Positions 22,470-31,034 of a stretch of DNA of 46,853 nucleotides are shown one piece after another (position 1 is the stretch's first letter; each line of letters begins with the position of its first letter). A program made the position numbers and the translations under genes. The stretch is from positions 1 to 46,853 of the forward strand of contig NZ_JACJMB010000018.1 in assembly GCF_016902615.1 (NCBI RefSeq), given 5' to 3'. Origin of the DNA: Collinsella tanakaei. GTDB lineage: Bacteria; Actinomycetota; Coriobacteriia; Coriobacteriales; Coriobacteriaceae. The notes below the pieces were generated by a model. That model was not told the DNA's origin. It searched no databases and was given only the letters and a program-made list of their open reading frames with translations.

Positions 22470-23471
22470 TCACATGATGGCTGCGGCCACGATGTAGGCG
22501 ACGTAGAGCAGCACGAACACGATGCCGTTGCGCCTGCTCATCGTGTGGCGCGGCCCGATGTAGGCGAACGCGATGAGTGCGGCGGTTGCCAGCGCGAGCA
22601 GGATGAGGTCGGGGTTGTAGGACGCGGCGTAGGGAACGGTGGTCACGAGCGCCGGCAGGCCCATGACAAGCAGCAGATTCGCCACGTTGGATCCCACGAC
22701 GTTGCCCACGGCGAGGTCGGTGTTGCCGCGCAGCGCCGCCACGACGCTGGTGATGAGCTCGGGCAGGCAGGTGCCGAGCGCGATGACGGTGATGCCGATG
22801 AGGCGCTCGCTGATGCCCAGGCTCTCGGCGAGGGACACGGCGTGGTCGATCGTGAGGTCGGCGCCGACCTTGAGCAGGCCGATGCCCGCGACGATGAGGA
22901 CGATGGCGGCAAGGGGATGCGTGCGGGCGCGGTCGATGAGCGCGCGGATGCCGCTCTCGACGGCCTTCTCGAGCTCAGGGGCGTCGGCGTCAGCCTCGGC
23001 ATCTTCCTCCTGGTCGCCCTCGCGCATGCCGACGACGATCGTGCGCGCCATGAAGGCGGCGAAGGCGATGAGCAGGATGATGCCGTCGATGAGAGACAGG
23101 CTGCCGTCCAGGTTCGCCAGCAACGCGAGCAGGCCGATGGCGGCGATGCTCGCCGGCACCTCGAAGCGCTGCGTCTGGCGTGTGAGGCGAATGGGCGCGA
23201 TGACGGCGGATAGGCCGAGGATGAGCAGCAGGTTCGCCAGGCAGCTGCCCACGACGTTGCCGACGGCCATGTCGGAATAGCCGCTGGCCGCCGAGCTCAC
23301 GCTCACGACGATCTCGGGTGCCGCCGTGCCGACGGCGACGAGCGTGAGGCCGATGACGCGGTCGCTCATGCCGAAACGCCGCGCGATGCCGCACGAGCCG
23401 TCGACGAGGAAGTTCGCGCCGAAGATGAGCAGGGCGAATCCTATAACGATGAAAATGAGGTCAAGGACCAT
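22470..23471 (-). CDS. calcium/sodium antiporter (YrbG-type, CaCA family)
   Basis: 333 residues with two inverted copies of the Na/Ca exchanger repeat. The alpha-1 region has GTAAPEIVVS and GNVVGSCLANLLLILG; the alpha-2 region has GTCLPELITS and GNVVGSNVANLLLVMG. About ten membrane helices are visible, with an acidic cytoplasmic loop (EGDQEEDAEADADAPELE) in the middle. GGAGGGAAG abuts the ATG at 23471; the longer frame upstream adds 22 unlikely residues. It probably exchanges Ca2+ for Na+ or H+ across the cytoplasmic membrane. Confidence 0.85.
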   Translation of the reverse strand: MVLDLIFIVIGFALLIFGANFLVDGSCGIARRFGMSDRVIGLTLVAVGTAAPEIVVSVSSAASGYSDMAVGNVVGSCLANLLLILGLSAVIAPIRLTRQTQRFEVPASIAAIGLLALLANLDGSLSLIDGIILLIAFAAFMARTIVVGMREGDQEEDAEADADAPELEKAVESGIRALIDRARTHPLAAIVLIVAGIGLLKVGADLTIDHAVSLAESLGISERLIGITVIALGTCLPELITSVVAALRGNTDLAVGNVVGSNVANLLLVMGLPALVTTVPYAASYNPDLILLALATAALIAFAYIGPRHTMSRRNGIVFVLLYVAYIVAAAIM

Positions 23472-23677
23472 CTTCCCTCCGATCCCACATGCGATCCGGC
23501 GGGTCCCTATCTTTCCGCCGGCGCACGCGATGTACATACACGCACTACGTTTACCCGCTCAGAGGCGGTTTCTGGAAGAGCCGGAGGGCGCATCCAGACG
23601 GAATGCAAATATGTGAGGGAATTGGGGACAGATAGTGGAAACGCGATGGCCGCCTGAGCTCCGCTGCCGTCGACGGT

Positions 23678-24589
23678 CTAGCGACAGGTGAAGGCGTAGG
23701 TGACCTCACCGGCGTCGAAGGTTGCAGTGATGGCGTAGCGCCAGCCCGGCTCGAGGGTAAGCGTTGCCTCGCCGTCCGTAAGCGCGGTCTCGACCGTCTC
23801 GGCGGGAAGCGCGGCGGGATCGAGGGCGGCGGTGCCGCCGGCGCGCGTGGCCGCTTCGGCGAGGGCGTCTTCGCTCCAGCGCTCGACCGCGACGGCGCGC
23901 ACCTCGTCATCGAAGCTCACACGTGTCTCCGTGGCGCCGTCGAGACGGGCGTCGGGCAGCTCGTCGCGCTCGATCTGCACGGGGGAGGGTGCATCGGAGG
24001 CGATCGTTGCGGCCTCGCAGTCGTGCTCAACGGTCCAGGTGTAGCTGCAGATCTGGGGCGTCAGTGTGACCTGGGCGAGCTCGGTTGTGTACTCGATGGC
24101 CGCGTGCGCGGGCTGCCCCGGGTCGCGCTCGACGGAGAGCTGCTCGATCAGGTCGGCGTAGGGGGCGACGTCGTCGGGCGATCCCTCGTCGATGACCTCG
24201 ACGCGCGTGATGCCCGGGTACTGGCCGGGGTAGCTCTCGAGCATGATGCCGTTGCCGGTGACCTCCACCACGTTGCCGCTCGTGAGGTCGGCGGCCGCGA
24301 TGGGGTTGCCGTCCGCGTCGACGATCTGGGCGTCATCGAGCGTGGGGATGTAGGGCGTGCCGGTGGCCTGGTTCACGAACAGCGGGCTTCCGTCATCCAG
24401 GATGATGACGAGGGCCTCCTCGGCGACGGAGTTCTCCTCCGCGCTGCCAGCGGGGGCAGAGCTCCTGTCGATTCCCGTCATGCTGCCGCCTTTCGTTACG
24501 GTTCCGGTCGTGCAGCCGCCAATGAGCGCCGCGGTGAGAAGTGCCGCCGCGGCCGTGCGCGCGGTTGCGCCTCGAAGGTTGTGTCCCAT
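23678..24589 (-). CDS. lipoprotein of unknown function
   Basis: 303 residues. The signal sequence ends in a lipobox (LIGGC, Cys near residue 26), so it is probably lipid-anchored on the outer face of the membrane. The mature part starts with a Ser/Gly-rich linker, then a beta-rich segment containing DDGSPLFVNQATGTPYIPTL and NPIAAADLTSGNVVEVTGNG, like a small OB or DUF3221-type fold. The C-terminal part has CSYTWTVEHDCEA with two cysteines that could pair. AAAGGCGAGCC precedes the ATG. I assign no specific function. Confidence 0.7.
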   Translation of the reverse strand: MGHNLRGATARTAAAALLTAALIGGCTTGTVTKGGSMTGIDRSSAPAGSAEENSVAEEALVIILDDGSPLFVNQATGTPYIPTLDDAQIVDADGNPIAAADLTSGNVVEVTGNGIMLESYPGQYPGITRVEVIDEGSPDDVAPYADLIEQLSVERDPGQPAHAAIEYTTELAQVTLTPQICSYTWTVEHDCEAATIASDAPSPVQIERDELPDARLDGATETRVSFDDEVRAVAVERWSEDALAEAATRAGGTAALDPAALPAETVETALTDGEATLTLEPGWRYAITATFDAGEVTYAFTCR

Positions 24590-24712
24590 GGCTCGCCTTT
24601 CCGGTCGGTCGTGTTCGCGCCATCCTACCATGGGTAACCCGGATGCCTCATCCCCGTTGCGCCCGCGCGGCCCGGCTGCAGACGGTATACAGAACCTGCA
24701 GATAGGGTGAGT

Positions 24713-24745
24713 GGGCCCGCGCGACGCGAAGCGTCCCGCGGGCCC
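24713..24745. terminator. GC-rich hairpin between GH13 and lipoprotein genes
   Basis: GGGCCCGCG (24713-24721) pairs with CGCGGGCCC (24737-24745), with a further ACGC-GAA-GCGT inner stem. It lies about 37 bp beyond the stop of the minus-strand GH13 gene. No U-tract follows on the minus strand. Confidence 0.45.
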
Positions 24746-24781
24746 GCTTGTGAGCCGTTAGCTTTACGTGCAGCTTATTCG

Positions 24782-27043
24782 CTACTTCTTGAGCATCCAG
24801 ACGAAGCTCCAGCTCGGCATGTCGACGGTCTCGATATCGGACACCGCACCGCTCACCAGGTCAGTGTAGGTGCCCGCCTCGGGCATCCAGATCGTCTTGG
24901 CATCGTCGCTGAAGTTGAAGACGGCGTGCAGCTCCTCGCCGTCGGCGCGACGCACGATCCACAGGATGGAGAGGTCGCTGTAGTCCTTGGTGTAGACCTC
25001 GGCGTCGGCGGAGAAGACCGGCTCGGTGCGGCGGATCTCCTCAAGCTCCGACAGGGCGTCGAAGATGCGCTGCTGGACGGTACCGGGCTGCTCGATGGCG
25101 CGCGTGAGGTCCCAGTCGAACTTCCCGCGGTGGATGTAGCGCGAGTCCTCGACCTTCTCAGGGTCGTCCTTGTAGGTGTAGTCGTTCACCTGGCCGACCT
25201 CGTCGCCGCTGTAGATGATGGGCAGGCCGGACTGCGTGAACACGTAGGCATGCAGCATGATGTCCTTGCGGATGGCCGTGACCATCGCTGCCTCGTCGCC
25301 CTCGAAGCCGGCGGCCTCGATGCCGCACATGGAGGCGGTGGTGGCGCAGAAGCGCGCGTCGCCCGTGACGGGGTCGGCGTTGTAGAGCTCGCCGCGGCTC
25401 ACGCTGCCGGGGGTGAGTCCGCAGAAGTAGTCGTTCAGGAACTTCTTGTGCGGCACCTCGTACATGCCCCACTGCTCGAGCGAGTCGTAATCGAGGCCCC
25501 AGCCGATGTCGTCGTGGCAGCGCAGGTAGTTCAAGAACGTGTACTCATGCGGCAGGCCGTAGACGGCGTCGAGCTGCTGGCGGAGCAGCCGCACGTCGCG
25601 CGTGGCGACGGTGTGCCAGGTCGTGGCCATGGTGGTCACATTGTAGAGCATGTGGCACTCGGGCTTCTCGACCGTGCCGAAGTAGGGCACGACCTCCACC
25701 GGCGCCATGACGACCTCACCCAGAAGCACGATGCCCGGGCAGACGATCTCGCCGATCATGCGCATCATGCGGACGATGGTGTGGACCTGCTTGAGGTTGC
25801 GGCAGTTCGTGCCCAGCTGCTTCCAGATGTAGGGCACCGCGTCGATGCGGATGATGTCCATGCCCTGGTTCGCCAGGAACAGGAAGTTGTACATCATCTC
25901 GTTGAAGACGCGCGGGTTGCGGTAGTTCAGGTCCCACTGGTAGGGATAGAACTGCGTCATGACGCACTGGTCGAGCTCGGGCAGGTAGGTGAAGTGGCCG
26001 GGCGCGGTGGCGGGGAAGACCTGCGGCACGTCGCGGGTGTAGCGGTCGATGATGCCCTGGTCCTTCACGAAGAAGTAGCGGCTCATGTACTCGCCCTCGC
26101 CCGCACGCGCGCGGCGCGCCCACTCGTGGTCCTCGGAGGTGTGGTTCATGACGAAGTCCATGCACAGGCTGATGCCGCGGTCATGGCACTTGTCGGCGAG
26201 CTCCGCAAGATCCTCCATGGTGCCGAGCTCGGGGTTCACGCGGCGGAAGTCCTTGACCGCGTAACCGCCGTCCGAGCGGCTCTTGTCGGAGGGCGTGTCG
26301 AGGAACGGCATGAGGTGGATGTAGTTCACATGGCAGCGCTCGATGTAGTCGAGGTTCTCCTCGACGCCCTTGATGGTGCCGGCGAAGTTGTCGATGTACA
26401 TCTGCATGCCGAGCATGTCGCTTGAGCGGTACCAGGCGCCCGCGGCCTCGCGCTCGGCGTCGAGGGCCTTGAGCTTGGCGGAGCGCTCGTCGAAGAAGCG
26501 CTTCATCTGGTCGCAGAGCTCGGCGAACATGTCGCCGTTGTCGTAGAGCTCCATGTAGAGCCAGCGCAGCTCGTCGTGATGGCGGGCGAGGCGCTCGGCG
26601 AAGAGCTTGTCGTCGGCTTCCTTCTGCTTTTTGGCCGCCGCCGCGCTGACCTTCTTGGCGGCAGGCTTCTTCGCTGCGGTCTTGGTGGCCCTTGTGGTCT
26701 TGGCGGGCGCCGGCGCGGCCTTGGTGGCCTTCGGCGTCGATGCGCTCTTGGCCGCCGTCTTCGCGCCGGTCTTGGGGGCGGCTGCCTTCTTGGTTGCCGT
26801 GGTCGAGGCGGCCTCGGTCGCCTTCGACGCCGTCTTGGTCTCCTTGGCCGTTGCGCTCTTCGCGGACGCGGCAGTCGTCTTCTTGGCTGCTGCGGTCGTC
26901 GCCGCGGGTGTGGTCCTCTTCTCGCTGGCGGCCGCGGTCGCCTTCGTCGTGGATGCGGTCTTCGTCGTGGTCGTCTTCTTGGCCGCCTTGGGCTCGGCGG
27001 TATCTGAGGTCGCTTGGGAGGCAGGCTTGCGGGTGGTCGCCAT
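24782..27043 (-). CDS. GH13 amylosucrase-like enzyme with histone H1-like N-terminal tail
   Basis: 753 residues. The first 140 or so consist almost only of Ala, Lys and Thr with Ser and Pro (repeats such as TAAKKPAAKK), like histone H1 or nucleoid protein tails. A GH13 catalytic domain follows: DFVMNHTS (region I), nucleophile Asp401 in DIIRIDAVPYIW, acid/base Glu443 in LLGEVVMAP, and His510-Asp511 in LRCHDDIGW. Sequence style and a C-terminal beta domain fit the amylosucrase/sucrose hydrolase branch (GH13_4). GGAAGGATGGG precedes the ATG and the frame is unbroken, so the tail is truly part of the gene. No signal peptide is present. Confidence 0.82.
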   Translation of the reverse strand: MATTRKPASQATSDTAEPKAAKKTTTTKTASTTKATAAASEKRTTPAATTAAAKKTTAASAKSATAKETKTASKATEAASTTATKKAAAPKTGAKTAAKSASTPKATKAAPAPAKTTRATKTAAKKPAAKKVSAAAAKKQKEADDKLFAERLARHHDELRWLYMELYDNGDMFAELCDQMKRFFDERSAKLKALDAEREAAGAWYRSSDMLGMQMYIDNFAGTIKGVEENLDYIERCHVNYIHLMPFLDTPSDKSRSDGGYAVKDFRRVNPELGTMEDLAELADKCHDRGISLCMDFVMNHTSEDHEWARRARAGEGEYMSRYFFVKDQGIIDRYTRDVPQVFPATAPGHFTYLPELDQCVMTQFYPYQWDLNYRNPRVFNEMMYNFLFLANQGMDIIRIDAVPYIWKQLGTNCRNLKQVHTIVRMMRMIGEIVCPGIVLLGEVVMAPVEVVPYFGTVEKPECHMLYNVTTMATTWHTVATRDVRLLRQQLDAVYGLPHEYTFLNYLRCHDDIGWGLDYDSLEQWGMYEVPHKKFLNDYFCGLTPGSVSRGELYNADPVTGDARFCATTASMCGIEAAGFEGDEAAMVTAIRKDIMLHAYVFTQSGLPIIYSGDEVGQVNDYTYKDDPEKVEDSRYIHRGKFDWDLTRAIEQPGTVQQRIFDALSELEEIRRTEPVFSADAEVYTKDYSDLSILWIVRRADGEELHAVFNFSDDAKTIWMPEAGTYTDLVSGAVSDIETVDMPSWSFVWMLKK

Positions 27044-27679
27044 GGTCCCATCCTTCCTACTCGTATCTCGGTATTCGCATTCATTCTATGGTGTCTACGA
27101 GCGGATTTATGCAACAGGAGGCCGGGTGGGCAAGACTCGTGGCAATCGTCTATATCCGCTATGGGAACGATATCGCAAAAGGGTTGGTTGCGCGCGTTTT
27201 CTGGGTGGTGACGTCGGGAAGCGCGGCGCGCGCGGGATGGCGCGGGCGCGGTGGATGGCACTGGCTGCGGTTCGGGTGCGCACTCGGGGCGCGATCGGCC
27301 CGAACCGCCCAGTTCCCTTCCGCGCACAGACGAGCATGGGCGGTGCGCTTCCTGACGCGCGCGGGCAAACGGTTTTTCAGCGCGGATTTCGCCGCTTCGC
27401 AACCTCGACCTCCTACTTTCAGTACTTTTTTCGAGGACTCTCGTGAAGAGCGGGTATCCGGTTGAAATATGAGCAGAAAAACCGCAGGTAAATGGCTATA
27501 TCGTTTTGGCTGTTTTCAGGGTCTACTCGTGACGGCTCCAAAAAAGTACTGAAAGTGGGCCCTCCTCGTTTCGCGGGGCTCGGTTTCCGGCGGATTCGTG
27601 CACGCGATGCCGCACCGGGCGGGGCAGGTGCCGGGTGGCGTACACTCGTGGCGGTCAATATGAGTGAAAGGGGTCGGAC
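27044..27679. other. intergenic region with an inverted-repeat element
   Basis: Between the divergent GH13 and PanE-like genes. It holds the inverted repeat at 27415-27556. The rest shows no ribosome-bound frame. AT-rich TCGGTATTCGCATTCATTC near 27066-27084 may be promoter sequence for the GH13 gene. Confidence 0.45.
27415..27556. repeat. 142-bp palindromic-ended repeat (MITE-like)
   Basis: Arms 27415-27435 (ACTTTCAGTACTTTTTT then CGAG) and 27536-27556 match as inverted copies at 20 of 21 positions. The inside has no coding capacity and is more AT-rich than its surroundings. It resembles the element at 20931 in size and layout but not in sequence. Confidence 0.5.
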
Positions 27680-28594
27680 ATGGCGATCGAGCGTATCGCG
27701 TTTATCGGTAGGGGAGCCGTCGGGCTTCTTCATGCGAGCATCATGGCGGAGCATCTGGGGCCGGGCGCCGTCGAGTTCGTGATGGATGACGAGCGCTTCG
27801 CACGCCATGCGGGCGACGTGCCGCGCATCAACGGTGAGCCGTGTCGCGTGCCCACGATCTGCGCGAGCGAGGCGACCCCGGTCGACCTCGTCATCCTCAC
27901 GGTCAAGGCCACGGGCCTTGCGGGCGCGCTCGATACCATGGAGGCGCTCGTCGGTCCGGACACGCGCATCCTGTCGCTTCTGAACGGCGTGACGAGCGAG
28001 GGCATCATCGCCGAGCGATATGGGTGGGAGCGCATCGCGCCGAGCATCACGCAGGGAATGGATGCCGTCTTCATGGACGGGGAGCTCACCTACACCCATC
28101 CCGGCGAGATCCGCCTGGGCGCGGGGATGAGGACGGCTCGCGGCGTCGTGGAGGATATCGATGACGCGCTCACGCGCGGCGGCATCGTCCATACGGTCGA
28201 GGCGGACATCGTCCGCCGCATGTGGGTGAAGCTCATGCTGAACGTCGGCATCAACCAGACCTGCATGGTCTACGGCGGGACCTACGGCAGCGCGAGCGAG
28301 CCGGGCAGCGAGCAGAACCGTTGCTTTATCGCCGCCATGCGCGAGGCGCTTGCGGTAGCGCGCGCCGAGGGGGTCGACGTGACGGAGGCCGACCTTGCCG
28401 AGATGGCCGAGCTCACGGCATCGCTCGGTGGGGCGGGCATGCCGTCGATGGCGCAGGACCGCATAGCGCGCCGACCGACCGAGGTCGAGCTCTTCGGGGG
28501 CACGATCGTGCGCCTGGCCGAGCGCCACGGGATCCTCGTGCCGCAAAACCGCTGGCTCTACCAGCGCATCCGCGAGATCGAGGCGAGCTGGTAG
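27680..28594 (+). CDS. ketopantoate reductase family (PanE/ApbA) protein
   Basis: 304 residues. An N-terminal Rossmann fold starts ERIAFIGRGAVGLLHAS. The glycine motif is GRGAVG, where the family usually has GxGxxG, so the nucleotide-binding loop is close to normal. The middle has LVILTVKAT and LLNGVTSEGIIAERYG, typical of ApbA/PanE. The C-terminal helical domain has WVKLMLNVGINQTCMVY, matching the K-x-x-x-N active-site region. NADPH-dependent reduction of 2-dehydropantoate or a related ketoacid is likely; no other pantothenate genes are adjacent. AAAGGGGTC precedes the ATG. Confidence 0.8.
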   Translation: MAIERIAFIGRGAVGLLHASIMAEHLGPGAVEFVMDDERFARHAGDVPRINGEPCRVPTICASEATPVDLVILTVKATGLAGALDTMEALVGPDTRILSLLNGVTSEGIIAERYGWERIAPSITQGMDAVFMDGELTYTHPGEIRLGAGMRTARGVVEDIDDALTRGGIVHTVEADIVRRMWVKLMLNVGINQTCMVYGGTYGSASEPGSEQNRCFIAAMREALAVARAEGVDVTEADLAEMAELTASLGGAGMPSMAQDRIARRPTEVELFGGTIVRLAERHGILVPQNRWLYQRIREIEASW

Positions 28595-28624
28595 GCTACC
28601 ACGTCCCCGATGAGGACACCCCGC

Positions 28625-29803
28625 TTACTGCTCGGAGCTCACGTAGCTCTCGTCGATGGTGACCTTCACGATGGTGCGCGGGTAGTGGTCCGCGACGATC
28701 TGCTTTACGCGGCGGCGCAGCTGCTCCTCGGTGAGCGGAAGGTCGGTCGGGCGCACGCAGTCGAAGATGACGTTCGTGTGCGTGGGGCCGGGCACGGTCC
28801 GAAGATCGTGGATGGTGATGCGCGGGTCGATGATCTTCACGGCCTGGTTGATCCAGTTGCGCATGTCGTTCACGGTCGGGTCGTCGGTCACGATGGGGTC
28901 GTAGTGCAGCGTGACGATGAGGCCGTCGTCGTTTTTGAAATCCTGCTCGATGTTGTCGATGAGGTCGTGGCTCTCCATGGGGTCGGCCTCGGCGGCCATC
29001 TCCACGTGCGCGCTCGCGAACTGGCGGCCGGGGCCGTAGTCGTGCACCATGAGGTCGTGGGTGCCGAGCACGCCGGGGTAGCTCATGATCTTGGCGCGGA
29101 TGTGCTCGACGAGCTCGGGCGAGGGCGCCTGGCCGAGCAGCGGGTTCACCGTGTCGCGCACCAGCCCGATGCCGCTCCATATGATGAAGGCGCCCACGGC
29201 CGCGCCGGCGACGCCGTCGAGCTGGATGCCGCAGACGTGCGAGATGGCGGCCGAGGCGAGCACCGCCGCGGTCGAGATGACGTCGTTGCGCGAGTCGACG
29301 GCGGTCGCCTGGAGGGTCTCCGAGTCGATGCGGCGCCCGATGGTGCGGTTGAACGCCGCCATCCAGAACTTGACCGCGATGGAGAGCACGAGGATGAGCA
29401 CGAGCGTGCCGTTGAACTCGACCGGAGTGGGGTGGAAGATCTTTTCGACCGAGGAGCCCACGAGGTTGATGCCGATGGCGAGCACGAGCGCGGCGACCAC
29501 GAGGCCCGCGAGGTACTCGTAGCGCCCATGGCCATAGGGGTGCTCGGGGTCGGCCGGGCGGCTCGCCAGCTTGAAGCCGAGCAGGCTCACGATGTTGCTT
29601 GCCGCGTCGGACAGGTTGTTCACGGCGTCGGCGACGATGGAGACGGACCCCGCGACGATGCCGATGGCGCCCTTCGCCACGCAGAGCGCGACGTTGCACA
29701 CGATGCCCACGATGCCGGCGAACTGGCCGTAGGCGGTGCGCACGGCGGCGTTCGCCGTGTCGTCGGCGTTCGGTATGAAGTGGCGGATGAGCCAATCGAT
29801 CAT
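28625..29803 (-). CDS. cation diffusion facilitator (CDF) family transporter
   Basis: 392 residues. Six membrane helices include ADAVNNLSDAASNIVSLLG (helix 2 metal site) and DSRNDVISTAAVLAS (helix 5 metal site), with HPYGHGRYEYLAGL between helices 2 and 3. A cytoplasmic C-terminal domain of about 170 residues follows, longer than in typical CDF proteins. The substrate is probably Zn2+, Mn2+ or Fe2+ exchanged for protons; the N-x-x-x-D pattern of helix 2 leans towards Mn-type members. GGAAGGACC precedes the ATG at 29803. The gene follows a terminator of the gldA-like gene. Confidence 0.82.
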   Translation of the reverse strand: MIDWLIRHFIPNADDTANAAVRTAYGQFAGIVGIVCNVALCVAKGAIGIVAGSVSIVADAVNNLSDAASNIVSLLGFKLASRPADPEHPYGHGRYEYLAGLVVAALVLAIGINLVGSSVEKIFHPTPVEFNGTLVLILVLSIAVKFWMAAFNRTIGRRIDSETLQATAVDSRNDVISTAAVLASAAISHVCGIQLDGVAGAAVGAFIIWSGIGLVRDTVNPLLGQAPSPELVEHIRAKIMSYPGVLGTHDLMVHDYGPGRQFASAHVEMAAEADPMESHDLIDNIEQDFKNDDGLIVTLHYDPIVTDDPTVNDMRNWINQAVKIIDPRITIHDLRTVPGPTHTNVIFDCVRPTDLPLTEEQLRRRVKQIVADHYPRTIVKVTIDESYVSSEQ

Positions 29804-29818
29804 GGGCGGTCCTTCCGG

Positions 29819-29853
29819 CAAAAAGACGCGGGCGGCAGGATGTGCCGCCCGCG
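29819..29853 (-). terminator. Rho-independent terminator of the gldA-like gene
   Basis: On the minus strand CGCGGGCGGCA pairs perfectly with TGCCGCCCGCG (29827-29853) and is followed by TCTTTTTGCC. It lies about 93 bp past the stop of the gldA-like gene and just before the CDF gene. Confidence 0.75.
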
Positions 29854-29945
29854 CAGGGTGTTGCAATCAAACGGATTGTAGGCGTTTTCGCCGCTCCGCG
29901 CGAGGGTGGGGGCGGCGGGCACGTGGCGATTCCGGGCACCTGCCG

Positions 29946-31034
29946 TTACCGGGAGCCCCCGATGGCGTCGGCCGCGATGATGGCGTCGCGCACACCCGCG
30001 GGCGTGACCGCGAAGGGGAGGTTGCCCATGGTGTCGGTCGGCGCGCAGGCGTCTCGCGCCACGGCGTCGATCAGCTCGCGGGAGGCGTCCTCGATGCCGA
30101 GGGCGGCGAGCGTCGTCGGAAGGCCGACGGCCCGCATGAGGCCCAGCACCTCGTCGAGCTCTTTTGTCGGGGCGTTCTCGAGCACGAGCTGGACGAGCAC
30201 GCCGAACGCGACCTTCTCCCCGTGCATCGAGCGGGCCGCCTCGGGCCTGCGCGCCAGCGCGTTGTTGACGGCGTGGGCGGCGGCAAGGCCGCAGGATTCG
30301 AAGCCGATGCCGGACAGCAGCGTGTTCGCCTCGATAATGTTCTCGACGGCGGGCGTGAGGCAGCCGGCGTCAAGGGCCGCCTTCGCCTTCACGCCGTCTT
30401 CCATCAGGGTGTCAAAGCAGCTGCGGGCAAGCGCGAGCGCCGCCCTCGTCATGGTGCCGCCCCCGCAGACGGCAGCGCCGCTCGCCGCGCACGCGCGGGC
30501 CTCAATGTAGGTGGCGAGCGCATCTCCCATGCCGGCGACGGTCAGGCGCACGGGCGCGGCGGCCGCGATCTCGGTGTCCATAAGGACGACGTCGGGGCTC
30601 GCGGGCAGGTAGAGGTAGCGGTCGAAGGTGCCGTCTTCGCGGTAGATGACCGAAAGGGCGCTCACCGGGGCGTCCGACGAGGCGGCGGTGGGGCAGACGA
30701 TGACGGGTGCGCCGAGGGTGTGCGCGACCGCCTTGGCGGTGTCGATGACCTTGCCGCCGCCGATGCCGATGATGACGTCGCAGCCGCGCTCGCGGGCGAG
30801 CGAACGCAGGCGCTTGATCTCGGCGTCGGTGCATTCGCCGCCGAACGGCTCGAGGGCAAGCATCGCCCCCTCGCGCTCGAAGCCGCGCTTGATGGCGGCT
30901 CCCATGCGCTCGATCGCCGCGGTGCGGGCGATGCCGAGTGCGCTCGATCCGAAGGGCGCCGCATGGGCGCCGAGCTCGGTTATGGCGCCGGGCCCCTGGA
31001 TGTACCTGCTGGGACTCTTATATATACGGGACAT
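29946..31034 (-). CDS. gldA: glycerol dehydrogenase-like iron/zinc-containing alcohol dehydrogenase
   Basis: 362 residues of the GldA group. The NAD-binding region has IGIGGGKVIDTAKAVAHTLG followed by PTAASSDAPVSALSVIY. Metal ligands are likely Asp in VAGMGDALATYIEA and His in GLAAAHAVNNAL and ARSMHGEKVAFG, all as in glycerol dehydrogenase. The reaction would be glycerol to dihydroxyacetone with NAD+, or reduction of a related ketone. GAAGGAGAATGC precedes the ATG. The gene ends in a strong terminator. The exact substrate cannot be read from sequence. Confidence 0.8.
   Translation of the reverse strand: MSRIYKSPSRYIQGPGAITELGAHAAPFGSSALGIARTAAIERMGAAIKRGFEREGAMLALEPFGGECTDAEIKRLRSLARERGCDVIIGIGGGKVIDTAKAVAHTLGAPVIVCPTAASSDAPVSALSVIYREDGTFDRYLYLPASPDVVLMDTEIAAAAPVRLTVAGMGDALATYIEARACAASGAAVCGGGTMTRAALALARSCFDTLMEDGVKAKAALDAGCLTPAVENIIEANTLLSGIGFESCGLAAAHAVNNALARRPEAARSMHGEKVAFGVLVQLVLENAPTKELDEVLGLMRAVGLPTTLAALGIEDASRELIDAVARDACAPTDTMGNLPFAVTPAGVRDAIIAADAIGGSR

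Follow-up and report, generated by a model that had tools for sequence, protein, structure and literature searches.

An amylosucrase-type enzyme of Collinsella tanakaei with a histone H1-like N-terminal tail, and tails of the same kind on GlgA and GlgB

Histone H1-like tails are already known from proteins of bacterial storage granules. In PhaF and PhaM, the tethers of polyhydroxybutyrate granules, the histone-like tail binds DNA non-specifically and spreads the granules along the nucleoid, and PhaM moreover activates the polymer synthase (PMC13052382, in part). For AlgP of Pseudomonas aeruginosa, a disordered KPAA-rich C-terminal tail with a repeat region of 154 aa and a protein net charge of +55 was described, and this tail was required for the spacing of polyphosphate granules (PMC9239181, in part). 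The enzymes analysed here are likened to PhaF and PhaM in function, as a link to a storage granule would again be combined with a histone-like tail, with binding presumed in the present case. The tail of PhaF and PhaM is carried by accessory granule proteins, whereas here it is part of the very enzymes that synthesize the polymer, which would be an alpha-glucan. With AlgP the tail described here shares predicted disorder and basic charge, and KPAA is enriched in four of its relatives; AlgP, in contrast, is not an enzyme, and the present tail is made up of A, T and K with a single KPAA. K/A/T tails of the same composition are also carried by actinobacterial TopA (here in the same genome) and RpoD (here a frame in the same order), where they have a role in DNA binding; TopA and RpoD act on DNA, whereas the tailed enzymes described here act on glucan. 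The solved amylosucrases of Neisseria, Deinococcus and Calidithermus (PDB 1g5a, 3ucq and 7esh) match the enzyme core over their full length but, with 628-656 aa, have no long tail ahead of the N-domain.

Thus, what appears to be new is the presence of such tails on glucan-making enzymes and their sharing by three of them. The initial annotation knew of no described enzyme of this arrangement, and none was found in the open-licence PMC literature, as judged by titles and the beginnings of abstracts, be it an amylosucrase, a GlgA or a GlgB. In two thirds of the text of a review on alpha-glucan enzymes (Chem Rev, PMC11046441) the terms lysine-rich, intrinsically disordered, N-terminal extension and nucleoid are all absent. 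The placement of bacterial glycogen seems to be little studied, since the 2025 review on organelle positioning (PMC13052382) never mentions glycogen in its main text.

The window, i.e. the whole stretch of 46,853 nt that was analysed (contig NZ_JACJMB010000018.1, positions 1 to 46,853), contains the following features:

24782..27043, minus strand: whole open reading frame of the tailed GH13_4 amylosucrase-type enzyme, 753 aa plus stop, ATG start, single unbroken frame
26645..27043, minus strand: predicted unfolded basic A/T/K tail, residues 1-133 (by alignment 1-143), delimited by pLDDT, helix start and composition
24785..26644, minus strand: amylosucrase core, residues 134-753, delimited by sequence and fold similarity and by the invariant residues D401, E443 and D511
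27051..27058, minus strand: ribosome binding site AGGAAGGA, 7 nt ahead of the ATG, Shine-Dalgarno score 5
22470-31034: neighbouring genes for a Na/Ca exchanger, a PanE-like reductase, a CDF cation transporter and a glycerol dehydrogenase

The neighbouring protein at 23678-24631 had no match in Pfam or NCBIfam. A CDF gene was also observed near the amylosucrase-type enzyme in another locus (L037).

From the upstream stop codon to about residue 146, the proposed ATG is the sole ATG, GTG or TTG codon in frame, and the ribosome binding site ahead of it is a good one, as initially annotated. Initiation near residue 140, which had been named as a possible refutation, is thus disfavoured. A translation start at the core, with the tail region left untranslated, is extremely improbable. 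Some relatives do begin near the core (79 of the 101 scored tails of Lachnospiraceae have 10 aa or fewer), but these homologues are separate variants. Against such an artefact there are also the start codon with its ribosome binding site, the tail composition, which is kept at the protein level across species, and the tails of GlgA and GlgB, which are C-terminal and independent of the choice of start.

The enzyme core was compared with solved structures. In the sequence search, similarity to 18 chains of amylosucrases and sucrose hydrolases begins at residue 126-156 of the window enzyme, and the best solved relatives are amylosucrases, with a full-length match to 7esh (E 2.2e-137). When Foldseek was used with the predicted model of the window enzyme, the top 15 matches were amylosucrases and the top 26 were amylosucrases or sucrose hydrolases. 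The match to the solved amylosucrases covers the full length in both sequence and fold, the helical N-domain included. D401, E443 and D511, which we take to be the catalytic triad (catalytic Asp, Glu and Asp), align with the solved enzymes and were invariant in 30 aligned sequences. The AlphaFold2 model is based on 30 sequences and has low to moderate confidence in much of the barrel. The sucrose hydrolases 3cze and 9r8i are close to the window enzyme as well, and amylosucrase and hydrolase activity are indistinguishable by sequence and fold. The window protein is regarded as a complete cytoplasmic amylosucrase-type enzyme with putative activity on sucrose, in agreement with the assignment to GH13 made earlier; amylosucrases belong to subfamily 4 of this family.

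The in-frame tail of Ala, Lys and Thr was confirmed, with a correction of its unfolded part. Residues 1-128 were modelled with a pLDDT of about 31 and without secondary structure, and the first helix starts at residue 134. The unfolded part would therefore comprise about 133 residues instead of about 140, with residues 134-143 predicted to prolong the first helix of the enzyme. Residues 1-143 contain 48 A, 33 T, 29 K, 11 S, 8 P, 5 E, 3 R and 1 D, corresponding to 34% A, 23% T and 20% K at a net charge of +26, and F, W, Y, L and I are all absent. The tail is long, predicted to be disordered, strongly basic and rich in Lys and Ala with few acidic or hydrophobic residues, as in H1-like tails of the AlgP and PhaF type. 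KPAA-type repeats are not enriched in the window tail, which has one KPAA, a count reached by 173 of 1000 shuffles. In the relatives L009, L126, L129 and L145 the KPAA count is above that of shuffled sequences (reached by 0-1 of 1000), and in L126 an array of a 12-bp DNA unit fits KPAA. As a stand-alone domain the window tail had no match in PDB, PHROGs or Pfam, even at E 10. A basic head formed by the first 15 residues was considered as a common element and rejected: it is conspicuous among Lachnospiraceae and in the named-locus set but does not stand out in Coriobacteriia. Judging from its composition, the window tail may bind DNA or other polyanions.

The composition was evaluated for 31 pooled Coriobacteriia tails of at least 20 aa (1,914 residues). 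K accounts for 15.5% of the residues versus 2.1% expected from the base composition of local intergenic DNA, F, W and Y together for 0 of 1,914 versus about 6% expected, and the basic share of charged residues is 84% in the tails versus 40% in the core. The window tail has 0 repeated 15-mers versus 0.5 expected after synonymous codon shuffling. The window tail is therefore neither a product of chance nor of simple slippage. Due to the skewed composition and the lack of repeated 15-mers, we conclude that the composition is preserved in the protein and that any DNA repeats once present have been lost. Slippage as the whole cause is accordingly rejected for the window tail, not for the tails of Lachnospiraceae.

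The genome of the window was searched for similar stretches with a pattern of AAGAAG followed by three codons for S, T, P or A, which is not exhaustive. This pattern gave 65 matches versus 18 for the reversed control. Subsequently, 50 contexts (30 loci from the pattern search and 20 fetched) were scanned for strict K-rich windows, which were found in the window enzyme and in the first five of the following frames, the sixth being from another genome:

L359:633-3239, plus strand: TopA (topoisomerase I), tail of 51 aa with 33% K
L333:1404-1937, minus strand: ribosomal protein L17, K/A-rich stretch
L332:1410-1883, minus strand: ribosomal protein L31, K/A-rich stretch
L361:1435-1857, minus strand: SecE, K/A-rich stretch
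L348:1014-1601, minus strand: NuoI-like ferredoxin, K/A-rich stretch
L395:476-2395, minus strand: RpoD frame, other genome of the same order, K/A/S/T extension of about 180 residues with several KPAA-like units

As shown by SecE and the NuoI-like ferredoxin, K-rich stretches also occur outside nucleic-acid and glucan enzymes. The pattern matches in GlgA and GlgB lie in the stretch of contig C46 treated below, the match at C46:21574 lies in a 400-kb sample of the genome, and those at C67:22053 and C42:590 lie outside the contexts scanned. No further case was found in the 400-kb sample by the strict or by a looser rule; this sample ended at C46:100000 and missed the tails of GlgA and GlgB. The strict scan of these 400 kb and of the best 80 of 526 loci yielded 25 amylosucrase ORFs and nothing else. 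A protein search with the tail matched the tail itself and one weak out-of-frame his-region match (150 of 352 candidates scored), and the uniqueness of the tail in its genome that was read from this search was overturned by the GlgA and GlgB tails. One GlgA match and one polyphosphate kinase match were obtained in the same genome, so that glycogen as well as polyphosphate could serve as a partner.

By a control scan of other GH13 loci in the same genome, tails were discovered in the glycogen cluster, which is organized as follows:

Contig C46, 98376-100781: glgB
Contig C46, next in the cluster: glgP, glgC and glgD
Contig C46, 105658-108135: glgA
Contig C46, last in the cluster: glgX-malQ fusion

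Past the enzyme cores, GlgB carries about 95 and GlgA about 306 C-terminal residues. The tail is hence not a feature of the GH13 enzyme alone, as it had first appeared, but is also present on GlgA and GlgB, both in this genome and across the genus. The fractions of A, K and T are.34,.20 and.23 in the amylosucrase tail,.34,.26 and.18 in the GlgB tail and.36,.19 and.26 in the basic block of GlgA, whose composition is thus near that of the other two. The GlgA tail of this genome is a diblock of 86 aa with net -20 followed by 208 aa with net +37. GlgP, GlgC, GlgD and GlgX-MalQ of the same genome have no such tail. In this genome the tag is found on 3 of 3 chain-lengthening or branching enzymes versus 0 of 6 other sugar enzymes, i.e. 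GlgP, GlgC, GlgD, GlgX-MalQ and two further GH13 loci on contigs C30 and C2 (Fisher p 0.012, for a class named post hoc and with MalQ also rearranging chains).

The cluster was additionally fetched from 36 further genomes, in three of which (G021, G001 and G026) no upstream glg genes were found in the stretch. Together with the genome of the window, 34 genomes were scored, 31 of the window's genus and 3 of family f5 (G054, G046 and G038), and a tail was called from 25 aa onwards. GlgB is tailed in all 34 (28-164 aa, all net positive). GlgA is tailed in 31, which are all 31 of the window's genus (103-467 aa, all net positive); in the three f5 genomes GlgA has no tail, though GlgB is tailed. GlgP, GlgC and GlgD, which serve as an internal control from the same operon, are tailed in 0 of 34 each. 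Over 8 genomes the tail lengths of the enzymes are uncorrelated (Spearman 0.19 and 0.40, not significant), with two of the eight amylosucrase lengths (G017 and G008) being rough or lower bounds.

As amylosucrase, GlgA and GlgB share this kind of tail, glycogen synthesis in the cell may be anchored to DNA or to a different polymer of negative charge. At a probability of roughly 45%, the tail would be a polyanion-binding tag on glucan-building enzymes that works like PhaF, PhaM and AlgP, with binding and location put forward by analogy. It is read as such a tag because TopA, L17, L31 and RpoD carry like stretches and because of the precedent of PhaF, PhaM and AlgP. An amylosucrase-type enzyme with an N-terminal unfolded polycation would convert sucrose to alpha-1,4-glucan and fructose in the cytoplasm, and the lineage would tag its alpha-glucan lengthening and branching enzymes, GlgA and GlgB at the C-terminus and amylosucrase at the N-terminus. 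The tag would most likely bind polyanions such as nucleoid DNA, RNA or polyphosphate through charge. It could thereby gather the three enzymes and the growing glucan at a single site and ensure that glycogen granules stay spread, as H1-like tails do for polyhydroxybutyrate and polyphosphate granules. Tentatively, and with somewhat less confidence, we propose for Collinsella and its relatives that glycogen synthesis is positioned and confined by H1-like tails which tether GlgA, GlgB and the long-tailed amylosucrases to the nucleoid, to another polyanion or to each other.

Among the 31 GlgA tails of at least 100 aa, 26 contain an acidic 40-aa window with a net charge of -6 or below, and in 30 the window of lowest charge lies ahead of that of highest charge. 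With acidic-then-basic GlgA tails, the enzymes might instead assemble with one another. The tails of GlgB and amylosucrase, both basic, and the distal block of GlgA could pair with the acidic proximal block of GlgA, so that the enzymes condense together and not on DNA. The diblock of the window's own genome and the prevalence of the acidic-first order fit such coacervation, which is nevertheless unlikely, as the acidic window is absent from 5 of the 31 tails and GlgA is untailed in the scored f5 genomes.

Amylosucrase tails were compared across relatives. The enzyme is present in 40 of 296 sampled Coriobacteriia genomes, in 8 of 43 genomes of the window's genus and in 99 of 348 genomes of Lachnospiraceae, the family around the L054 genome; further loci were taken from a genome-contig scan (best 80 of 526). 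After fragments with fewer than about 430 aligned residues had been dropped and identical cores merged, 213 rows were kept, comprising 38 of Coriobacteriia, 102 of Lachnospiraceae, 22 of other Actinomycetota and 51 from the contig scan alone. The start of L109 was set by hand, the tail of L009 is a lower bound due to a contig edge, and L119 (identical with L008/L038), which was excluded from the tail statistics on account of an adapter-like break, entered the tree with 100 aa.

As proposed with the initial annotation, homologues in Coriobacteriia were searched, and the 37 scored rows (of 38) have tails of 11-202 aa, none of 10 aa or fewer and 8 of at least 100 aa. All 32 tails of at least 20 aa are net positive, with 22% K+R and 4% D+E. 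Among the 101 scored rows of Lachnospiraceae (of 102), 12 tails have at least 50 aa; of the 18 tails of at least 20 aa, 13 are net positive, 4 negative and 1 neutral, and long tails of this family blend lysine with glutamate. In other Actinomycetota a K-rich tail was found in none of the 20 scored rows. Three members of the window's genus (G013, G016 and G022) have amylosucrase tails of merely 24-39 aa with net +3 despite long GlgA and GlgB tails; the tag on amylosucrase is hence optional within the genus. The tether to the nucleoid, polyphosphate or glycogen that was envisaged at first is retained as the leading idea and is strengthened by the GlgA and GlgB tails, whereas a universal nucleic-acid-binding role in the amylosucrase family appears weakened because tail length varies and tails are often short or absent, and often non-basic in Lachnospiraceae.

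In the FastTree phylogeny, the 38 Coriobacteriia rows group with 10 rows from the contig scan in one clade with support 99. Its sister clade comprises 31 rows, most of them bearing Mediterraneibacter names, and the two clades are nested within the Lachnospiraceae rows. This nesting fits a horizontal transfer into Coriobacteriia. With a cut at 50 aa, 32 changes between long and short tails are required on the tree. Over the whole amylosucrase set, tails have 0-253 aa and net charges between -29 and +29. Such variation is compatible with a bristle for solubility or spacing, in which an unfolded charged tail prevents trapping or aggregation of enzymes that make insoluble amylose-like chains and sequence is secondary to charge and disorder. 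Moreover, the tailed enzymes handle long glucan, and the fold is not kept, since the K/A/E tail of L062, the sole one modelled from Lachnospiraceae, was predicted to be partly helical with low to moderate confidence. A mere bristle would, however, need neither the basic charge of all Coriobacteriia tails of at least 20 aa nor their poverty in acidic residues, and GlgP, which also acts on glycogen, has no tail. This explanation seems doubtful.

Many Lachnospiraceae tails show a large excess of repeated 15-mers. In L062 the tail is built of a 24-bp DNA unit and has 139 repeated 15-mers versus 34.6 expected. The tails of L054/L171 and L055 have 188 versus 98 aa at 95% identical core DNA. Across L054, L055 and L060 (188, 98 and 130 aa), core DNA is 90-95% identical, which points to fast gain or loss of repeats. 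The GlgA tail of the window's genome also contains repeats (33 versus 4.8 expected), whereas the GlgB tail contains none. These repeats, together with the many short or absent tails, speak for a tolerated, functionless tandem duplication of a short terminal sequence. This explanation is distinctly improbable, given that the window and GlgB tails lack DNA repeats and are far in composition from mutational expectation, and that tails are kept in 34 of 34 GlgB and 31 of 31 genus GlgA proteins and are absent from three neighbouring genes.

For the reading as a polyanion-binding tag count the near-identity of the three tails in composition, the GlgA/GlgB pattern in every scored genome of the genus, the untailed operon neighbours, the uniformly basic Coriobacteriia tails of at least 20 aa and the repeat-free window and GlgB tails with their composition kept. 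Against it count the short amylosucrase tails in three genus members, the lack of a length correlation, the tail-less GlgA of family f5, the non-basic tails of Lachnospiraceae, the drawing of the glucan-building class after the data had been seen, and the DNA repeats still present in the GlgA tail of the window's genome. If the reading holds, alpha-glucan granules would be positioned by a system whose tethers are the polymer-making enzymes, and the principle of PhaF and AlgP would be extended to a third kind of storage polymer and to tethers that are enzymes. The tail would then be a natural low-complexity charge tag reused on unrelated folds and at either terminus. Its presence on chain-building enzymes and its absence from their operon neighbours in all 31 scored genomes of this genus of gut bacteria make the question accessible to simple tail deletions.

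Two observations concern individual loci. In L008/L038 the frame upstream of the amylosucrase core enters the peptide PVPYTHLDEYKRQ, which we take to be sequencing-adapter read-through, so that this assembly is probably broken at the tail. In both Lachnospiraceae loci examined for this (L054 and L111) the amylosucrase gene lies behind a gene for a GH36 alpha-galactosidase, in L111 also ahead of one for a PfkB-type kinase, and this arrangement likely represents a raffinose-type operon for the use of raffinose-type sugars.
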